Assembly (NCBI RefSeq): GCF_000018405.1
Contig: NC_009943.1
Coordinates: forward strand, 1-64,000
Direction: 5' to 3'
Length of the DNA stretch: 64,000 nt
Origin: Desulfosudis oleivorans Hxd3
GTDB lineage: Bacteria > Desulfobacterota > Desulfobacteria > Desulfobacterales > Desulfosudaceae
Below the pieces are notes generated by a model that ran no database searches, was not told the DNA's origin, and worked only from the letters and a program-made list of their open reading frames with translations. Shown here piece by piece: positions 5,815-24,261 of this stretch (its first letter is position 1; each line of letters begins with the position of its first letter). The position numbers and the translations under genes are program-made.

Positions 5815-7230
5815 TTATGCTTCCATGTCGGCATGCACGGTTTCAAGGTCATGAAACCGGGTGATGTCGGCGCTAAACTGAAGCTTGATCTTGCCCACCG
5901 GGCCGTTGCGCTGCTTGCCGATGATGATCTCCGCGGATCCCCGGTTGGGGTTTTCCGGTTCCTTGTTGTACATCTCATCCCGGTAGATGAACAGCACCAC
6001 GTCGGCGTCCTGCTCCAGGGAGCCGGACTCCCGCAGGTGGGACAGCATGGGCCGCTTGTCCTGGCTCTGTTCCGGAGAACGGTTGAGCTGGGACAGGACG
6101 AGGATGGGCAGGTCCAACTCCTTGGCAAGCCCCTTTAAGGAGCGGGACATCTCCGACACTTCCAGGTCCCGGCGTTCTCCCTGGTGGGATGCCCGCATGA
6201 GCTGAAGATAGTCCACCACGATCATCCCGATGCCCTTTTCCCGCTTCAGGCGCCGGGCCTTGGCCCGAATCTCCATGGCGGTGAGCCCCGGCGAATCGTC
6301 AATGAACAGCGGGGCCTGCTCCAGCACCGAGGCCGCGTCCGTGATTTGACCCATATCCTGCCGGCTGGTATAGCCGCTCCGCAGGCGCTGAAACCCGATA
6401 CGGGCCTCGGCGGTGAGCAGCCGCATGGAGAGCTGCTCCTTGGACATTTCAAGGGAGAACACCGCCACCGGCACATTGGCGTCCACAGCCACGTTGCGGG
6501 CGATATTAAGGGCAAAGGCGGTTTTTCCCATGCTGGGGCGGGCCGCCAGAATGATCAGGTCCGACTTCTGAAAGCCGGCGGTCAGGTTGTCCAGCCGGTC
6601 AAACCCGCTGGGAATGCCGGTGATCCCCTTGCCCTGGTTTGCCTCGATGGTCTCTATGTTGGCAACCAGGAGCTGGCTGAGTTTGTAAAAAGAGCGGCCC
6701 GCCTTCTGCTCGGCCACTTCCAGGATCGCGCGCTCGGCAAAGTCGATGACCCCTTCCACGTCGGAGGGATTGTCAAAGCAGCGCCGGGAAATCTCGTTGG
6801 CGTTTTCGATCATTCGGCGCAACGAGGCCTTGTTCTTTATGATGTCGGCGTAGTGACGGGCATTGGCGGCATAGGGGGCCGAATCCACCAGGCCGGCCAG
6901 GTAGGCGGCGCCGCCGATGGGCTCCAGTTCGTCGCTCTCGGCCAGCGTGTTTTTCACCGTCACCAGGTCCACCGGCTCGTTTTTCTCCACCAGCCGGACA
7001 ATGGCGGCAAAAATCTTCTGGTGGGCCGATTTGTAGAAATCCTCGGGGGCCAGCACCTCCAGCACATCAAACAGCGTGGACGGGTCCGGGTCGATCAGAA
7101 TGGTGCTTAAAATGGACTCCTCGGCCTCGATGTTCTGGGGCGGCAGCCTGTGCAGCAGGGGGTCTGACGGTACGGCACCCGCGGCCCCGGCCTTGGGGCG
7201 ACCTTTTTTTTTGGGGGCTGCCTTTTCCAT
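5815..7230 (-). CDS. dnaB: replicative DNA helicase DnaB
   Basis: 471 aa, normal DnaB size. The N-terminal primase-interacting domain starts at PLLHRLPPQNIEAEESIL; the RecA-like domain has Walker A ARPSMGKTA, Walker B region MIVVDYLQLM and the C-terminal motif SGSLEQDADVVLFIYRDE followed by RNGPVGKIKLQF. The ATG at 7230 has a GAAGG ribosome site and encodes a short Lys/Ala-rich leader (MEKAAPKKKGRPKAG) before the core. It is the ring helicase that unwinds DNA at the replication fork. It lies just after rplI, the common rplI-dnaB arrangement. Confidence 0.97.
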   Translation of the reverse strand: MEKAAPKKKGRPKAGAAGAVPSDPLLHRLPPQNIEAEESILSTILIDPDPSTLFDVLEVLAPEDFYKSAHQKIFAAIVRLVEKNEPVDLVTVKNTLAESDELEPIGGAAYLAGLVDSAPYAANARHYADIIKNKASLRRMIENANEISRRCFDNPSDVEGVIDFAERAILEVAEQKAGRSFYKLSQLLVANIETIEANQGKGITGIPSGFDRLDNLTAGFQKSDLIILAARPSMGKTAFALNIARNVAVDANVPVAVFSLEMSKEQLSMRLLTAEARIGFQRLRSGYTSRQDMGQITDAASVLEQAPLFIDDSPGLTAMEIRAKARRLKREKGIGMIVVDYLQLMRASHQGERRDLEVSEMSRSLKGLAKELDLPILVLSQLNRSPEQSQDKRPMLSHLRESGSLEQDADVVLFIYRDEMYNKEPENPNRGSAEIIIGKQRNGPVGKIKLQFSADITRFHDLETVHADMEA

Positions 7231-19365: not shown

Positions 19366-20346
19366 CTATTTCTCCCTGGGTGTTTCCCTGTCCGGTGACC
19401 CGATTGTGTCTCTCATCTGGGTATCGGCCATGATATTTTTCATGCGGTAGTAGTCCATGATGCCCAGGTTTCCCTTTTCAAAGGCATTGGCCATGGCAAG
19501 GGGAATCTTTGCCTCGGCCTCCACCACCTTGGCCCGCATCTCCTCCACCTGAGCCTTCATCTCCTGCTCCCGGGCATAGGCCATGGCCCGCCGCTCCTCG
19601 GCCTTGGCCTGGGCGATCTTCTTGTCCGCCTCGGCCCGGTCAGTCTCCAGCTCGGCGCCGATGTTCTTGCCCACGTCCACGTCGGCGATGTCGATGGAGA
19701 GAATCTCAAAGGCCGTGCCCGAGTCCAGCCCCTTTTCCAGGACCCGCTTGGAGATCAGGTCCGGATTTTCCAGCACGTGCTTGTGGGAGTCGGCCGAACC
19801 AATGGTGGTGACAATGCCCTCGCCCACCCGGGCCAGAATGGTCTCTTCCCCGGCACCGCCCACCAGCCGGTCGATGTTGGCCCGCACCGTGACCCTTGAG
19901 ATGGCCTTGAGCTGAATGCCGTCTTTTGCCATGGCCGCGATCATGGGGGTTTCGATCACCTTGGGGTTGACGCTCATCTGGACCGCCTCCAGCACGTCCC
20001 GACCGGCCAGGTCAATGGCCGCCGACCGGTTGAAGGAGAGTTCGATCTTGGCCTTGTCCGCCGCGATCAGGGCCTGGACCACCCGGCTCACATTGCCCCC
20101 GGCCAGGTAGTGGGACTCCAGCTCGTCCGAACTGATGTCCAGGCCCGCCTTGGTGGCCATGATCTTGGACTCCACAATAAGCTTGGGCGGCACTTTGCGA
20201 AACCGCATGAACACGATGTTGAGCAGGCCCACCCGGGCGCCGGACACCAGGGCCTGAATCCAGAGGGATACGGAGGAGCCGACAAAGTAAAACAGCACGA
20301 TGACGGCCACCACGAGAAAAAACAGTATAATGTAGTTCGGGTTCAT
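19366..20346 (-). CDS. floA: flotillin-like protein FloA
   Basis: 326 aa, typical FloA length. N-terminal hydrophobic hairpin [39 protein letters not shown] inserts in the membrane; SPFH/Band-7 region follows with [39 protein letters not shown], and a C-terminal coiled coil rich in Ala/Glu/Lys ([39 protein letters not shown]). Scaffold of functional membrane microdomains. The two NfeD-family genes upstream are the normal partners: NfeD proteases or anchors plus FloA. Confidence 0.93.
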
Positions 20347-20372
20347 GGGGGTCTCCTTTGGGGGTGTTATGT

Positions 20373-20849
20373 TTATTCCGGTGTTGTGACGATGACCTGG
20401 TTGCCGGTCACCGCGCGCACAACCACCTCGGAATTTCTATCAATATACGCACCGCGACTGACCACGTCAACCCGTTTCCCCTCTATCATGGCCACGCCCG
20501 AGGGCCGCAGGTCGGAAAGGGCGGTTCCCTTTTTCCCCATCAGGCCCTCCATGTCGGGCCGCTGGGAAGTGACGCCGGCACCGGTGGACAGCTCGGCCCG
20601 AAGCGTGGCCGGTGACCGGGCCAGCAGCTTCAGGCCCAGCAGAATCACAAGAGGCAGCACCACCACGTCGATGCCGATCAGCAGGTACCCGGCATCAACG
20701 GATATCTGGCCGAACACGGTGTACAGGGAATAGCCGATCAGGCCGGCGGCCAGCAGGCTCAACAGGCCCCCCGACGGTATGATCACCTCGGCGATGATGA
20801 TCACCACGGCCACCAACTGCAGAATGACGACAAGCATCACCGGGTTCAT
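20373..20849 (-). CDS. NfeD-like membrane protein (short form)
   Basis: 158 aa. Two or three N-terminal membrane segments ([57 protein letters not shown]) then an OB-fold C-terminal domain ([51 protein letters not shown]), diagnostic of NfeD. The ATG overlaps the stop of the long NfeD gene (20846-20849), so they are co-translated. Probably acts with FloA in the membrane. Confidence 0.88.
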
Positions 20850-22312
20850 TGCGTTGTCTCCCTTGACACCACCAGCACGTTGCCGCGAACCGCAATAATT
20901 ACCACCGGGGTGCCTTTGTCCAGGAATTCGCCCTCTGTGACCACGTCATACATTTCCGGGCCGATTTTCATCTTTCCCGCCGGCCGCAGCGAGGTGGCGG
21001 CTGTGCCCCGGTCGCCAACGCCGGCGCCGGTGTTGGCCGTGGCATCGGCCCGGGCCTCGCTCAGGGTGGCACTTAGGTACGGCCCGCTGACCACCGCCGA
21101 CAACCGGGGCAGCACAAACCGAAGCAAAAACAGGGCCGCCAGAAAGGCGGTCACCACGGCGCCCAGCACCTGGATCACGTTGTTTACCATCAGGTCCGTC
21201 TGCCAGGGCATGTCCGGGTCGGGCAGCACAAACCCCTGCATGGCCAGGACAAAAGAGACGATGATGCAGACGGCGCCGGCAATGCCGGCAATGCCGAACC
21301 CGGGCAGCACAAAGGTTTCAATCCCGATCAGCACCAGGCCCAGCAGAAAGATCAGCAGTTCGGTGTAGTCGGCCAGGCCCACGGCGTACTGGTTCATGAA
21401 AAACAGGGCCAGACAGATGATGCCCACGATGCCGGGAACACCGAAACCCGGCGACTTGATTTCCGTGTACAGGGCTCCCAGGCCGATCAGCATCAGCAGG
21501 GGCGCAAGCGTGCCCAGCCAGCGCATCAGGCCCTCGGACCACTGCTGTTCCATGACAACGATATCGGTATCGTCAATACCCATGGCGGCCAGCATCTCCT
21601 TTACGCTGGAGACGGTCATTTGTGAAAATCCCAGGTCCCGGGCCTCAATGTCGTCCATGGTGAGCAGCTCGCCTTTGGCCACCACGGTTTTTTTAGACAC
21701 CACGGCCGATTTTTGGGCTTCATCCATCTCCTCGTACTCCAGGGCGTCCATGTAGAATGTGCCGCCGTCTTTGGTCACCACCCGGAACACCTCCATGTCG
21801 GCGGTGACCATGGACTCGGCCAGGGCCTCGGGATACCCGTTTTTTTTGGCCAGGGCCCGGAACTTGGCCCGCAGCGGGGACTGGAATTTTTCCCCCAGCA
21901 TTTCCGGCCCCTGGCTTCCCACCATGATGGGCGCGCAGTCGCCGATGGTGGTGCCGGGCTTCATGACCAGCTCGTTGCAGGCCAGGGCGATCAGCGCCCC
22001 GGCCGAGATGGCCTTCCTGGAGACAAAGGCGATGGTTTTCCCCTTGCTATCTGCCGCCGTGATCAGGTCCACGATCATCAGGGCCGAATCGACCCGGCCC
22101 CCAAAGGTATCCAGGTCCAGGACAATGGTCTGGTGTGGCGCTTCCGGAATATCATCAAGCGCCCGTTTCAGGTAGGCGGCCATACCCGGAGCCACGTCGC
22201 CGGCCACCTTGACCACATAAACCGTGTGGGCATCACCGGCGGATACCGGACCGGGGGCCACCAAAAAAAATCCGGAAACCAGCAGGCAGAAAATAAGAAA
22301 AAGACGCTTCAC
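20846..22312 (-). CDS. NfeD long form: ClpP-class membrane serine protease
   Basis: 488 aa. Signal peptide, ClpP/crotonase-like domain (VLDLDTFGGRVDSALMIVDLI; AFVSRKAISAGALIALACNELVMKPGTTIGDCAPI where Ser of ISAGALIAL is the presumptive nucleophile and the Lys-containing segment follows), then four membrane segments (GTLAPLLMLIGLGALYTEI onwards) and a C-terminal OB domain like the short NfeD. In archaea homologues (1510-N) cleave stomatin; here the partner would be FloA in the same operon. First gene of the four-gene minus-strand operon ending at 18772. Confidence 0.9.
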   Translation of the reverse strand: MKRLFLIFCLLVSGFFLVAPGPVSAGDAHTVYVVKVAGDVAPGMAAYLKRALDDIPEAPHQTIVLDLDTFGGRVDSALMIVDLITAADSKGKTIAFVSRKAISAGALIALACNELVMKPGTTIGDCAPIMVGSQGPEMLGEKFQSPLRAKFRALAKKNGYPEALAESMVTADMEVFRVVTKDGGTFYMDALEYEEMDEAQKSAVVSKKTVVAKGELLTMDDIEARDLGFSQMTVSSVKEMLAAMGIDDTDIVVMEQQWSEGLMRWLGTLAPLLMLIGLGALYTEIKSPGFGVPGIVGIICLALFFMNQYAVGLADYTELLIFLLGLVLIGIETFVLPGFGIAGIAGAVCIIVSFVLAMQGFVLPDPDMPWQTDLMVNNVIQVLGAVVTAFLAALFLLRFVLPRLSAVVSGPYLSATLSEARADATANTGAGVGDRGTAATSLRPAGKMKIGPEMYDVVTEGEFLDKGTPVVIIAVRGNVLVVSRETTQ

Positions 22313-22360: not shown

Positions 22361-23017
22361 CTATTCCCCGGTCCGGCCTGCCAGGGAAAACCGGTCCAGG
22401 ATGGTCCCCACGGCCCGCATGTCAGGGGCGTGAAAATCGGCTTTCAGTGCCGGGTTGTTGTAGGCGATAAACGGCACCTGGGCCGAGGTTGCGGCCCGTT
22501 CATCCAGTTCCGAGTCACCGATGTAAATCATTTCTGAGGGGGCCGCGCCAAAGCGGTCGAGAATTTTTAACAGCTGCTCCGGGGCCGGCTTTGGCCGCAT
22601 CACGTCCAAGGCCGTGACCACCATCTCGAACCTGTCGGCAAGGCCATGCTCGGCCAGGACCCGGTTCATGGTGTTGGAGCGGTTGGTGGCAATGGCGGTA
22701 TGGACCCTGTTGTAAAGCCGGTCCAGCAGGTCTTCCAGGCCGGGGGCTTTTTTCATGTGCCGGATAAACGGACCATACCCCAATCCTTTTCGAAGTGCTT
22801 GTGCCCGGTCCAGGCCATCTGCTCCACAGAGAAAAGCCAGAGAGTCGTTGACCGTGTGCATCTGCACATAACTAAACTGGGCGTCGGTCATCTCCGGCAG
22901 CCCCATGTTGACCAAAATGCGGTTGTAGTAGGCCCGGTTGGCGTCATCCGTGTCAAACAGGACTCCGTCGCAGTCAAAGGCGATGATTTTAACGGTCTGC
23001 CGTGTCGTGTCGCTCAA
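22361..23017 (-). CDS. HAD-family phosphatase, phosphoglycolate phosphatase-like
   Basis: 218 aa. Motif I FDCDGVLFDT with the nucleophile Asp, motif II ATNRSNTM, motif IV YIGDSELDERAA. A cap domain lies between (TRANSYNR-like helical part around MGLPEMTDAQFSY). Could be Gph or pyrophosphatase-like; substrate unknown. Start codon overlaps the stop of the upstream DUF1573 gene (ATGA at 23014-23017), so the two are coupled. Confidence 0.85.
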   Translation of the reverse strand: MSDTTRQTVKIIAFDCDGVLFDTDDANRAYYNRILVNMGLPEMTDAQFSYVQMHTVNDSLAFLCGADGLDRAQALRKGLGYGPFIRHMKKAPGLEDLLDRLYNRVHTAIATNRSNTMNRVLAEHGLADRFEMVVTALDVMRPKPAPEQLLKILDRFGAAPSEMIYIGDSELDERAATSAQVPFIAYNNPALKADFHAPDMRAVGTILDRFSLAGRTGE

Positions 23018-23751
23018 AGCACCGGCTCCTGGTTTGGCAAAACCGGAGAGACCAGGGTACCCTGGACCCGGACTTTCAGGTTCGGCACCAACTGGCTGTC
23101 GGTTTTCAGGTAGATAAAATCAATATAGGTGCCGGGCTCCTTGCGGGTGTTGGTCACTGTCAGCTGGTAGGCGGGCCGTCCATCATGGGTGATCTCTTTC
23201 AGATCAAAAGCGATCTCCTTTCCCTGGTTGGCCCGAACTTCGGTGATGGCAAACGGGTATTTTTCACCGGGAACAATGCGCACCACCTGCTTAAGCTCCA
23301 TGCCCACCGTGCCGCTGAGCCGTACCTGGTTAGGCATGACCGAGACCACGCGCTCCACCTGGCCGGTGATGGTCAGGGGAATAATTTTGTTGGACGGGTC
23401 ATTGGTGTAGACCGACGCGGTTTTGGTGATGCGCTGGTCCCCGTAGTGTTTGGTATAAACCTTTATGCTGATGGTACCCTCGCCGCCGGCGGGGATTGAC
23501 CTCGTAAACGAGGCCACCGCACACCCTCAGCCGGTTTTGACCTGCTCCACGCGAAGCTCGGCGGTTCCCGTGTTTTTTACGGTAAAGTCGTGCACCACCT
23601 CGGTGCCTTCAGGTACCGGGTCAAAGGTGAAGGTGCGCGCTTCGATCACTGCCACCGGTGACGCCTTGTCCGGCACGTCCGCGGCAAAGACGACGGCCCC
23701 GGCCGACAGTAGAAACAGAACCATCCCGCTCAGCATGATCAGGCGTTTCAT
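23014..23751 (-). CDS. DUF1573 exported protein, probable selenoprotein (in-frame TGA)
   Basis: Read as one 245-aa gene with Sec at residue 75. Signal peptide (MKRLIMLSGMVLFLLSAGAVVFA), then a DUF1573 Ig-like domain (TFTFDPVPEGTEVVHDFTVKNTGTAELRVEQVKTG). The frame meets TGA at 23527-23529 and continues without shift: GCAVASFTRSIPAGGEGTIS. Family proteins have CGC here (as in SCGCT), so the TGA falls on the first Cys and the second Cys is kept, giving U-G-C. After the TGA an 8-bp stem (23516-23509 with 23504-23497, one G.T pair, TTTA loop) begins 10 bases downstream; loop distance is 18, inside the bacterial SECIS range. Good ribosome site GGGAGAA. The gene lies between the phosphodiesterase and HAD genes. 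Alternative: a disabled gene or sequencing error. Confidence 0.75.
23497..23516 (-). promoter_or_regulatory. bacterial SECIS-like hairpin after in-frame TGA
   Basis: Stem TGGCCTCG (23516-23509) and CGAGGTCA (23504-23497), with loop TTTA; if the top G-C pair is open, the loop starts with G, as SelB-binding loops usually do. It lies 10 bases downstream of the TGA at 23529-23527, inside the coding sequence, as bacterial SECIS elements do. Confidence 0.6.
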
Positions 23752-23769: not shown

Positions 23770-24261
23770 TTATATGAGTACTCTTTCCGCCAAAAGCGCG
23801 GCCGTGTCCACCACGCAAAACCCCGGGGTATCGTCTTTTCCCAGCAGTTCGCCAGGGTTGACCACCAGGGTGTGGTTGACTTTTTTCTGCATCCAGACAT
23901 GAAAATGGCCGAAACAGACAATGTCGTACCGGCCCCCGCCGGCCAGGTCGTCGGCAATGGTGCCGTCATGAATAAAGGCCACCTGTCGACCGTCAGCCGC
24001 CAGGCGGCCAAAATCGCCGTGAAGCGTAATGTTTTTATGAACGGTCAACGCGTTTTTCGTCAACAGGTACCGGTCCCCGTCGTTGTTGCCGAACACGCCG
24101 TGAACCGGAATGCCGGCCATATCCAGTTCCGCCAGCATAAAGGGGGCCACAAAATCGCCGCAGTGAAGAATCATTTCACATCCGGCTTCCCGGACCTTTG
24201 CCACGGCCTTTCGCATGTTGGCGATGTTGTCGTGGGAATCGCTCATCACGGCCATCAGCAT
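23770..24261 (-). CDS. YfcE/MJ0936-type metallophosphoesterase
   Basis: 163 aa. Metal-binding motifs: SDSHDN (D-x-H), HCGDF, FGNNDGD, and near the C-terminus FGHFHVW. Size and motifs match the YfcE/MJ0936 phosphodiesterase family. Start ATG at 24261 has AAGGAGC about 8 bp upstream. Physiological substrate unknown; these enzymes hydrolyse model phosphodiesters. Head gene of the operon with the DUF1573 selenoprotein candidate (18 bp downstream) and the HAD phosphatase. Confidence 0.9.
   Translation of the reverse strand: MLMAVMSDSHDNIANMRKAVAKVREAGCEMILHCGDFVAPFMLAELDMAGIPVHGVFGNNDGDRYLLTKNALTVHKNITLHGDFGRLAADGRQVAFIHDGTIADDLAGGGRYDIVCFGHFHVWMQKKVNHTLVVNPGELLGKDDTPGFCVVDTAALLAERVLI

Follow-up and report, generated by a model that had tools for sequence, protein, structure and literature searches.

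The closest described relatives of the gene studied here are the selenoproteins of the OS_HP2 family. Two reviews (PMC9312934 and PMC13188914) tabulate a "DUF1573 domain-containing protein, UGC", citing Zhang & Gladyshev 2007 for it, and the list in PMC2398784 (2008) contains OS_HP2 with pfam07610 and the motif UxC. In their accessible sections, the selenoprotein papers only tabulate this family. Full-text searches for DUF1573 and OS_HP2, with the 2007 original outside their scope, returned neither a published pairing of OS_HP2 with a HAD gene nor a published arsenic or thiol context. A related group is formed by the Cys-type DUF1573 (PF07610) proteins, which share domain and motif but have Cys in place of Sec, lack the TGA and possess, in the 12 loci compared, a hairpin signal near chance. 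A further described system concerns the reading of UGA: the sections of PMC7609411 devoted to selC* report a tRNA-Cys with U73 and anticodon UCA in Desulfobacterales, accompanied by extra selB* and cysS* genes, and place selB* downstream of selC* in Syntrophobacterales and Desulfobacterales.

The gene analysed here is located on the minus strand of a 64-kb stretch of DNA, referred to as the window. Its parts and its immediate neighbours are as follows:

22361..23017, minus strand: HAD-type hydrolase (PF13419), a conserved neighbour with a 4-bp overlap with the selenoprotein gene
23014..23751, minus strand: OS_HP2-type selenoprotein gene, encoding a DUF1573 protein of 245 residues if the TGA is Sec; matches to PF07610 and NF041425
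23017..23352, minus strand: C-terminal Ig-like domain (AlphaFold2 strands from residue 136 on; fold matches across residues 30-237)
23353..23643, minus strand: N-terminal ASH/PapD-like Ig domain (DUF1573) with U-G-C, according to Pfam, AlphaFold2 and fold comparison
23497..23516, minus strand: bSECIS-type hairpin, 8-bp stem 23516-23509 / 23504-23497 with UUUA loop 23508-23505
23527..23529, minus strand: in-frame TGA, the proposed Sec codon; sole internal TGA, residue 75, forming U-G-C with Cys77
23683..23751, minus strand: predicted signal peptide, residues 1-23, ending in VFA before AD (sequence; AlphaFold2 helix 2-19 followed by a lower-confidence linker)
23770..24261, minus strand: upstream Metallophos_2 phosphoesterase, with homologues close to OS_HP2 in 8 of the 99 loci compared, window included

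The protein scored 136.8 bits against NCBIfam NF041425, "OS_HP2 family (seleno)protein" (curated cut-off 100), and 69.6 bits against the Pfam model PF07610 (DUF1573; cut-off 26.1). Having the same domain, the same motif (here U75-G76-C77) and a score above the curated cut-off, it shows no essential difference from OS_HP2. Within this family it is divergent: the highest identity among the 95 rows of our tree was 45%, and the best tblastn segment reached 49% (L068). Our main reading, to which we assign a probability of about 0.93, is that the gene encodes an exported OS_HP2 member with two Ig-like domains, whose UGA would be decoded as Sec by SelB and tRNA-Sec under the direction of the hairpin. 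This kind of protein has been known since 2007-2008, and the window gene is a well-supported divergent member of the OS_HP2 family; the pattern of neighbouring genes added here is useful but modest new context. The preliminary description of the locus had proposed, for an exported DUF1573 protein, a Sec codon followed by a bSECIS-type hairpin; this stands. Its additional remark that it knew of no DUF1573 selenoprotein described so far, and with it the claim of novelty, fails because the protein matches the curated family NF041425 and because DUF1573/UGC and OS_HP2/UxC are found in the tables cited above.

Read directly, the frame extends from the ATG at 23751 to the final TGA at 23016-23014, with 245 codons before this stop; the context of the internal TGA is V-K-T-G-U-G-C-A-V. 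Both the uninterrupted DUF1573 frame through 23529-23527 and the overlap of its final stop with the start codon of the HAD gene, which amounts to 4 bp, had been noted before and were found as described. Under the standard code, the same gene (23751-23014) breaks into two ORFs of 74 and 167 aa. A hexamer coding score was trained on 48 window ORFs and applied to in-frame TGAs flanked by 50 open codons in each direction. For the in-frame TGA (23529-23527), the two sides scored 1.01 and 0.88. Counting this one, five TGAs of the window scored positive (over 0.1) on both flanks; in the four others, the weaker flank did not exceed 0.28. This comparison of the coding signal on both sides of TGAs gave no convincing further selenoprotein in the window.

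Of 395 genomes of the phylum, 161 had a match to NF041425 (E ≤ 0.001), 45 of them above cut-off. Among the best 30 loci of this search, which include the window gene (L028), 27 have TGA and three have Cys; many of the 50 named loci come from Desulfobacterales and Desulfobacteraceae, for example from Desulfosarcina, Desulfobacula and Desulfobacter. One relative with a TGA allele is Desulfobacter latus AcRS2 (L104). The alignment of 111 homologous hits showed that 106 cover the column of the in-frame TGA, and every one of these has either TGA (91) or TGC/TGT (15) at this position. The check on homologues proposed earlier was thus answered by all readable hits, and the placement of U-G-C at the CxC site of the family, with the second Cys kept, agrees with the aligned column. 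The five hits that do not cover it are L111, in which the U-G pair is deleted, L114 and L109, which are cut short or out of frame, and L113 and L117, which are second-half pieces. After dropping second tandem copies and collapsing identical loci, 99 distinct loci remained with one site each, of which 87 have TGA and 12 TGC/TGT. A second hit in L058, which has a false motif in the signal peptide and is Cys by alignment, was left out of the neighbour count.

A tree was computed from 95 rows, 10 of them Cys; four rows with less than 150 aa were left out. It requires at least eight changes between Sec and Cys, three of which are forced by well-supported branches. For the part after the TGA, the median dN/dS was 0.18 and the maximum 0.54 (49 pairs of relatives, which are not independent, 46 of them with a defined ratio), and for the part before the TGA the median was 0.25 (41 pairs). 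The sequence behind the TGA is under purifying selection and is translated into protein. Two loci have tandem OS_HP2 copies: in L055 both contain TGA, and in L064 one contains TGA and the other TGC, which makes them a natural Sec/Cys pair. L111 (Desulfococcaceae bacterium HSG8, about 6000-6400) is an OS_HP2 gene without the U-G pair, with one Cys left and broken downstream; it looks like a decaying copy.

The stem of the window gene is exact: it consists of eight pairs, one of them G-U, and the loop begins 18 nt downstream of the TGA, precisely as the preliminary description had claimed. Protein-preserving shuffles of synonymous codons served as the null model for hairpins, and none of 2000 such shuffles of the window gene reached 8/8 pairs. 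Judged by energy, the 48-nt RNA of the window is unremarkable (z of -1.06 compared with dinucleotide shuffles, 26 of 200 of which fold equally well); the hairpin is convincing because its register is conserved, not because of energy alone. In the 87 TGA genes, the mean folding energy of nucleotides 10-40 was -9.15 kcal/mol versus -4.33 in synonymous shuffles, and the best of 300 summed shuffles, at -5.22, did not come near the observed mean. The z-value was below -1 in 84% of these genes and not below -1 in 16%. For the 12 Cys genes, the corresponding means were -4.68 and -3.84, with a mean z of -0.4 and 17% of genes below -1. For TGA genes, the hairpin by far exceeds the strength expected from synonymous codon choice; for Cys genes, it stays close to chance level. 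Pairing was highest in the register of the window (5.40 of 8) and dropped to 2.60-3.57 if the partner was slid by 1-3 nt. The inner stem pairs covary among the 87 TGA genes, with changes on both sides; for the pair 17-30, we counted C-G 40, U-A 30, U-G 6 and other combinations 11. Best kept is a core of five pairs, 16-31 to 20-27, which are unpaired in 11 to 26 of the 87 genes; the outer pairs are lost in 40 (14-33) and 37 (15-32) genes, and the loop-closing pair 21-26 is lost in 58. Eight of 26 distinct TGA alleles form at most five of the eight pairs in the window register. An Rfam search with 601 bases gave no match up to E 10, which is uninformative. As a comparative test, these results mark the TGA of OS_HP2 as a Sec codon maintained across many Desulfobacterota genomes and not as an isolated annotation.

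The same data bear on two readings in which there is no recoded TGA. If it were a true stop or a nonsense mutation, the halves would be separate or decayed ORFs, namely the 74-aa ORF and the 167-aa ORF starting from an internal GTG. Both pieces are indeed ORFs under the standard code, and decayed copies of the family exist elsewhere (L111, L114). However, the TGA recurs in the same column in the large majority of distinct loci, dN/dS behind it is low, and the 167-aa piece would be without the signal peptide and the first strands of its domain. We regard this reading as highly improbable, and for the window gene we rejected nonsense or decay in view of the conserved column together with dN/dS. 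A sequencing or assembly error would need just a single base change from TGC/TGT to TGA; set against this, TGA is present here in independent assemblies of many genera and is accompanied by a hairpin which Cys alleles do not maintain. An error is therefore very unlikely, and of all alternatives it is the one to which we give the least credence.

The machinery for Sec incorporation is complete in the 3.94-Mb single-contig genome. All four genes that the preliminary description had suggested looking for were present above cut-off: selA at 3667252 (597.3 bits), selB at 778801 (373.7 bits), selD at 3893407-3894333 on the plus strand (374.4 bits) and selC, a tRNA-Sec with anticodon UCA, at 2690342 (75.1 bits). 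Their positions also bear out the statement that none of them is contained in the 64-kb window. The selD gene itself carries one in-frame TGA, a feature known from some selenophosphate synthetases. SelA was found in 36 of 38 tested genomes with TGA alleles. It was not matched (E ≤ 0.001) in G272, an assembly of 180 contigs, and in G038, which consists of one contig and possibly has a divergent SelA; tRNA-Sec and SelB are present in both. In G232, no tRNA-Sec scored above the gathering score, and SelA and SelB are present. Because SelA was also found in 24 of 27 genomes chosen for having no stop inside among the matches listed, its presence is consistent with the main reading but does not discriminate. 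We rejected it as a means of telling TGA genomes from Cys genomes, as nearly all genomes have SelA.

The genome contains a second tRNA-Sec-like gene (3561047-3561140, minus strand; 6548-6640 in the extracted locus L157) with 54.7 bits, anticodon UCA, T73 and no encoded CCA. It adjoins two ORFs which we take, from their sequences, to be ftrB-like and glutaredoxin-like; the idea that the ftrB-like ORF is cut by a TGA was dropped, as its sequence is intact. With T73 and UCA in a tRNA-Sec-like body, including a Sec-like long variable arm, this gene has the U73 and UCA (or GCA) anticodon by which selC* is recognized in the relevant sections of PMC7609411. A further selC* feature is a modified 8/4 acceptor/T-stem with an A51a bulge; for the second tRNA, ARAGORN draws 7 and 5 bp. 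The downstream selB* is missing: the 13 kb surrounding this tRNA contain no ORF that resembles SelB, and genome-wide a single SelB scored above cut-off. The second tRNA also differs in sequence from the selC*-like copies of relatives. In six of these (L198, L199, L202, L203, L205, L206), a T73 UCA tRNA precedes an ORF (628-648 aa) whose start resembles SelB (named from sequence), an arrangement whose sequence features are consistent with selC*/selB* as presented in the corresponding part of PMC7609411. Besides a normal CysRS (565.8 bits), the genome encodes a 771-aa ORF (1391756-1394071, plus strand; L209 4757-7072) which resembles a CysK-CysRS fusion and scored 342.7 bits against TIGR00435 (cut-off 340); its synthase half is presumably a cysteine synthase.

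These observations allow for a reading in which the second tRNA inserts Cys at the UGA wholly or in part, resulting in an ordinary Cys-Gly-Cys DUF1573 protein. In its favour are the discriminator T and the UCA anticodon, with which this tRNA could compete at UGA, the selC* precedent in Desulfobacterales as far as PMC7609411 covers it, the six relatives with such a tRNA in front of a SelB-like start, and the fact that homologues accept Cys at this column. Against it speak the single SelB and the absence of a SelB-like ORF next to the second tRNA, as well as the hairpin, which is expected for SelB-dependent Sec insertion and is maintained in TGA alleles. Moreover, two genomes with a TGA-type OS_HP2 (G161 and G105) have one tRNA-Sec match each (E ≤ 1e-8, strict filters), for which reason the second tRNA seems unneeded for OS_HP2. 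We consider insertion of Cys very improbable. There is a slim chance that tRNA-Sec and a T73 tRNA of the Cys type compete at the UGA, so that the envelope would contain a mixture of Sec-Gly-Cys and Cys-Gly-Cys protein; if so, the proportion of Sec to Cys in OS_HP2 could be tuned by selenium supply.

For the Sec-containing protein, AlphaFold2 (alignment of 29 rows) gave a model with a pLDDT of 92.4, in which two Ig-like domains follow an N-terminal helix (residues 2-19). U75 is positioned in the turn that links strand 66-73 to strand 78-82. The N-terminal domain matched VesC (6bqm; Z 11.2, 98 residues, rmsd 2.4) and CEP192 (6fvi; Z 10.1, 103 residues, rmsd 2.5), both indicating likeness of fold only. 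The same holds for the ASH/PapD-like Ig domains of the HYDIN/CFA65/VesB type, for which the window protein scored 33.8 bits with PF22544. As many rows of the fold comparison are generic Ig-like matches, the fold alone was drawn from them, and a sequence search of the PDB returned nothing below E 0.14. According to the mechanism we propose, the UGA at residue 75 would be decoded as Sec by SelB and tRNA-Sec, with the hairpin just 3' of the UGA directing insertion. Export would then place the Sec-Gly-Cys pair in the cell envelope, in a turn of the ASH/PapD-like Ig domain, where it may act as a redox-active site of the selenenylsulfide/dithiol type.

Neighbouring genes were counted after the ORFs found within about 5.5-6 kb had been clustered by BLAST with single linkage, some neighbours being hidden by contig ends. 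Their Pfam/NCBIfam identity was determined for one or two members per named cluster. In 44 of the 99 loci, OS_HP2 has an ORF of the HAD cluster nearby; 43 of these ORFs share its strand and 42 begin at most 205 bp downstream, window included, whereas the one in L115 is distant and on the other strand. The 4-bp overlap was seen in 11 of the 99 loci, the window among them, and HAD hydrolase and OS_HP2 form an operon-type pairing. An upstream ORF that we take to be PriA-like occurs in 19 of the 99 loci, and in eight other loci a C-terminal processing peptidase lies ~3 kb upstream of OS_HP2. In 18 loci, OS_HP2 is accompanied by one or more genes of an arsenic/thiol set; none of these loci belongs to the HAD set. 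This set was identified by Pfam in L057 alone, where it consists of MauE, a rhodanese, a methyltransferase, an SBF-family (ACR3-like) transporter, DsbD_TM, two thioredoxin-domain proteins and ArsP_1. Twelve of the arsenic/thiol loci form, together with L101, a clade of 13 rows with support 98/99; L101, whose gene is at a contig end, has no arsenic/thiol neighbours in view. Both the conserved pairing with HAD and the clade with arsenic/thiol neighbours offer handles on the function of OS_HP2.

Extracytoplasmic thiol/selenol chemistry is favoured because this sister clade lies in arsenic and thiol-redox clusters. Judging from neighbours and fold, U-G-C probably serves thiol-disulfide or persulfide exchange outside the cytoplasm; that it holds a thiophilic metal or metalloid is a distinctly less likely possibility suggested by the same evidence, and the rest of the probability falls to a structural or other role.

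Downstream of the HAD gene and on the same strand, the window contains a membrane-associated set (19366-22312), which consists of a long ORF, presumably an NfeD-like serine protease, and FloA (NF010186, 550.8 bits).
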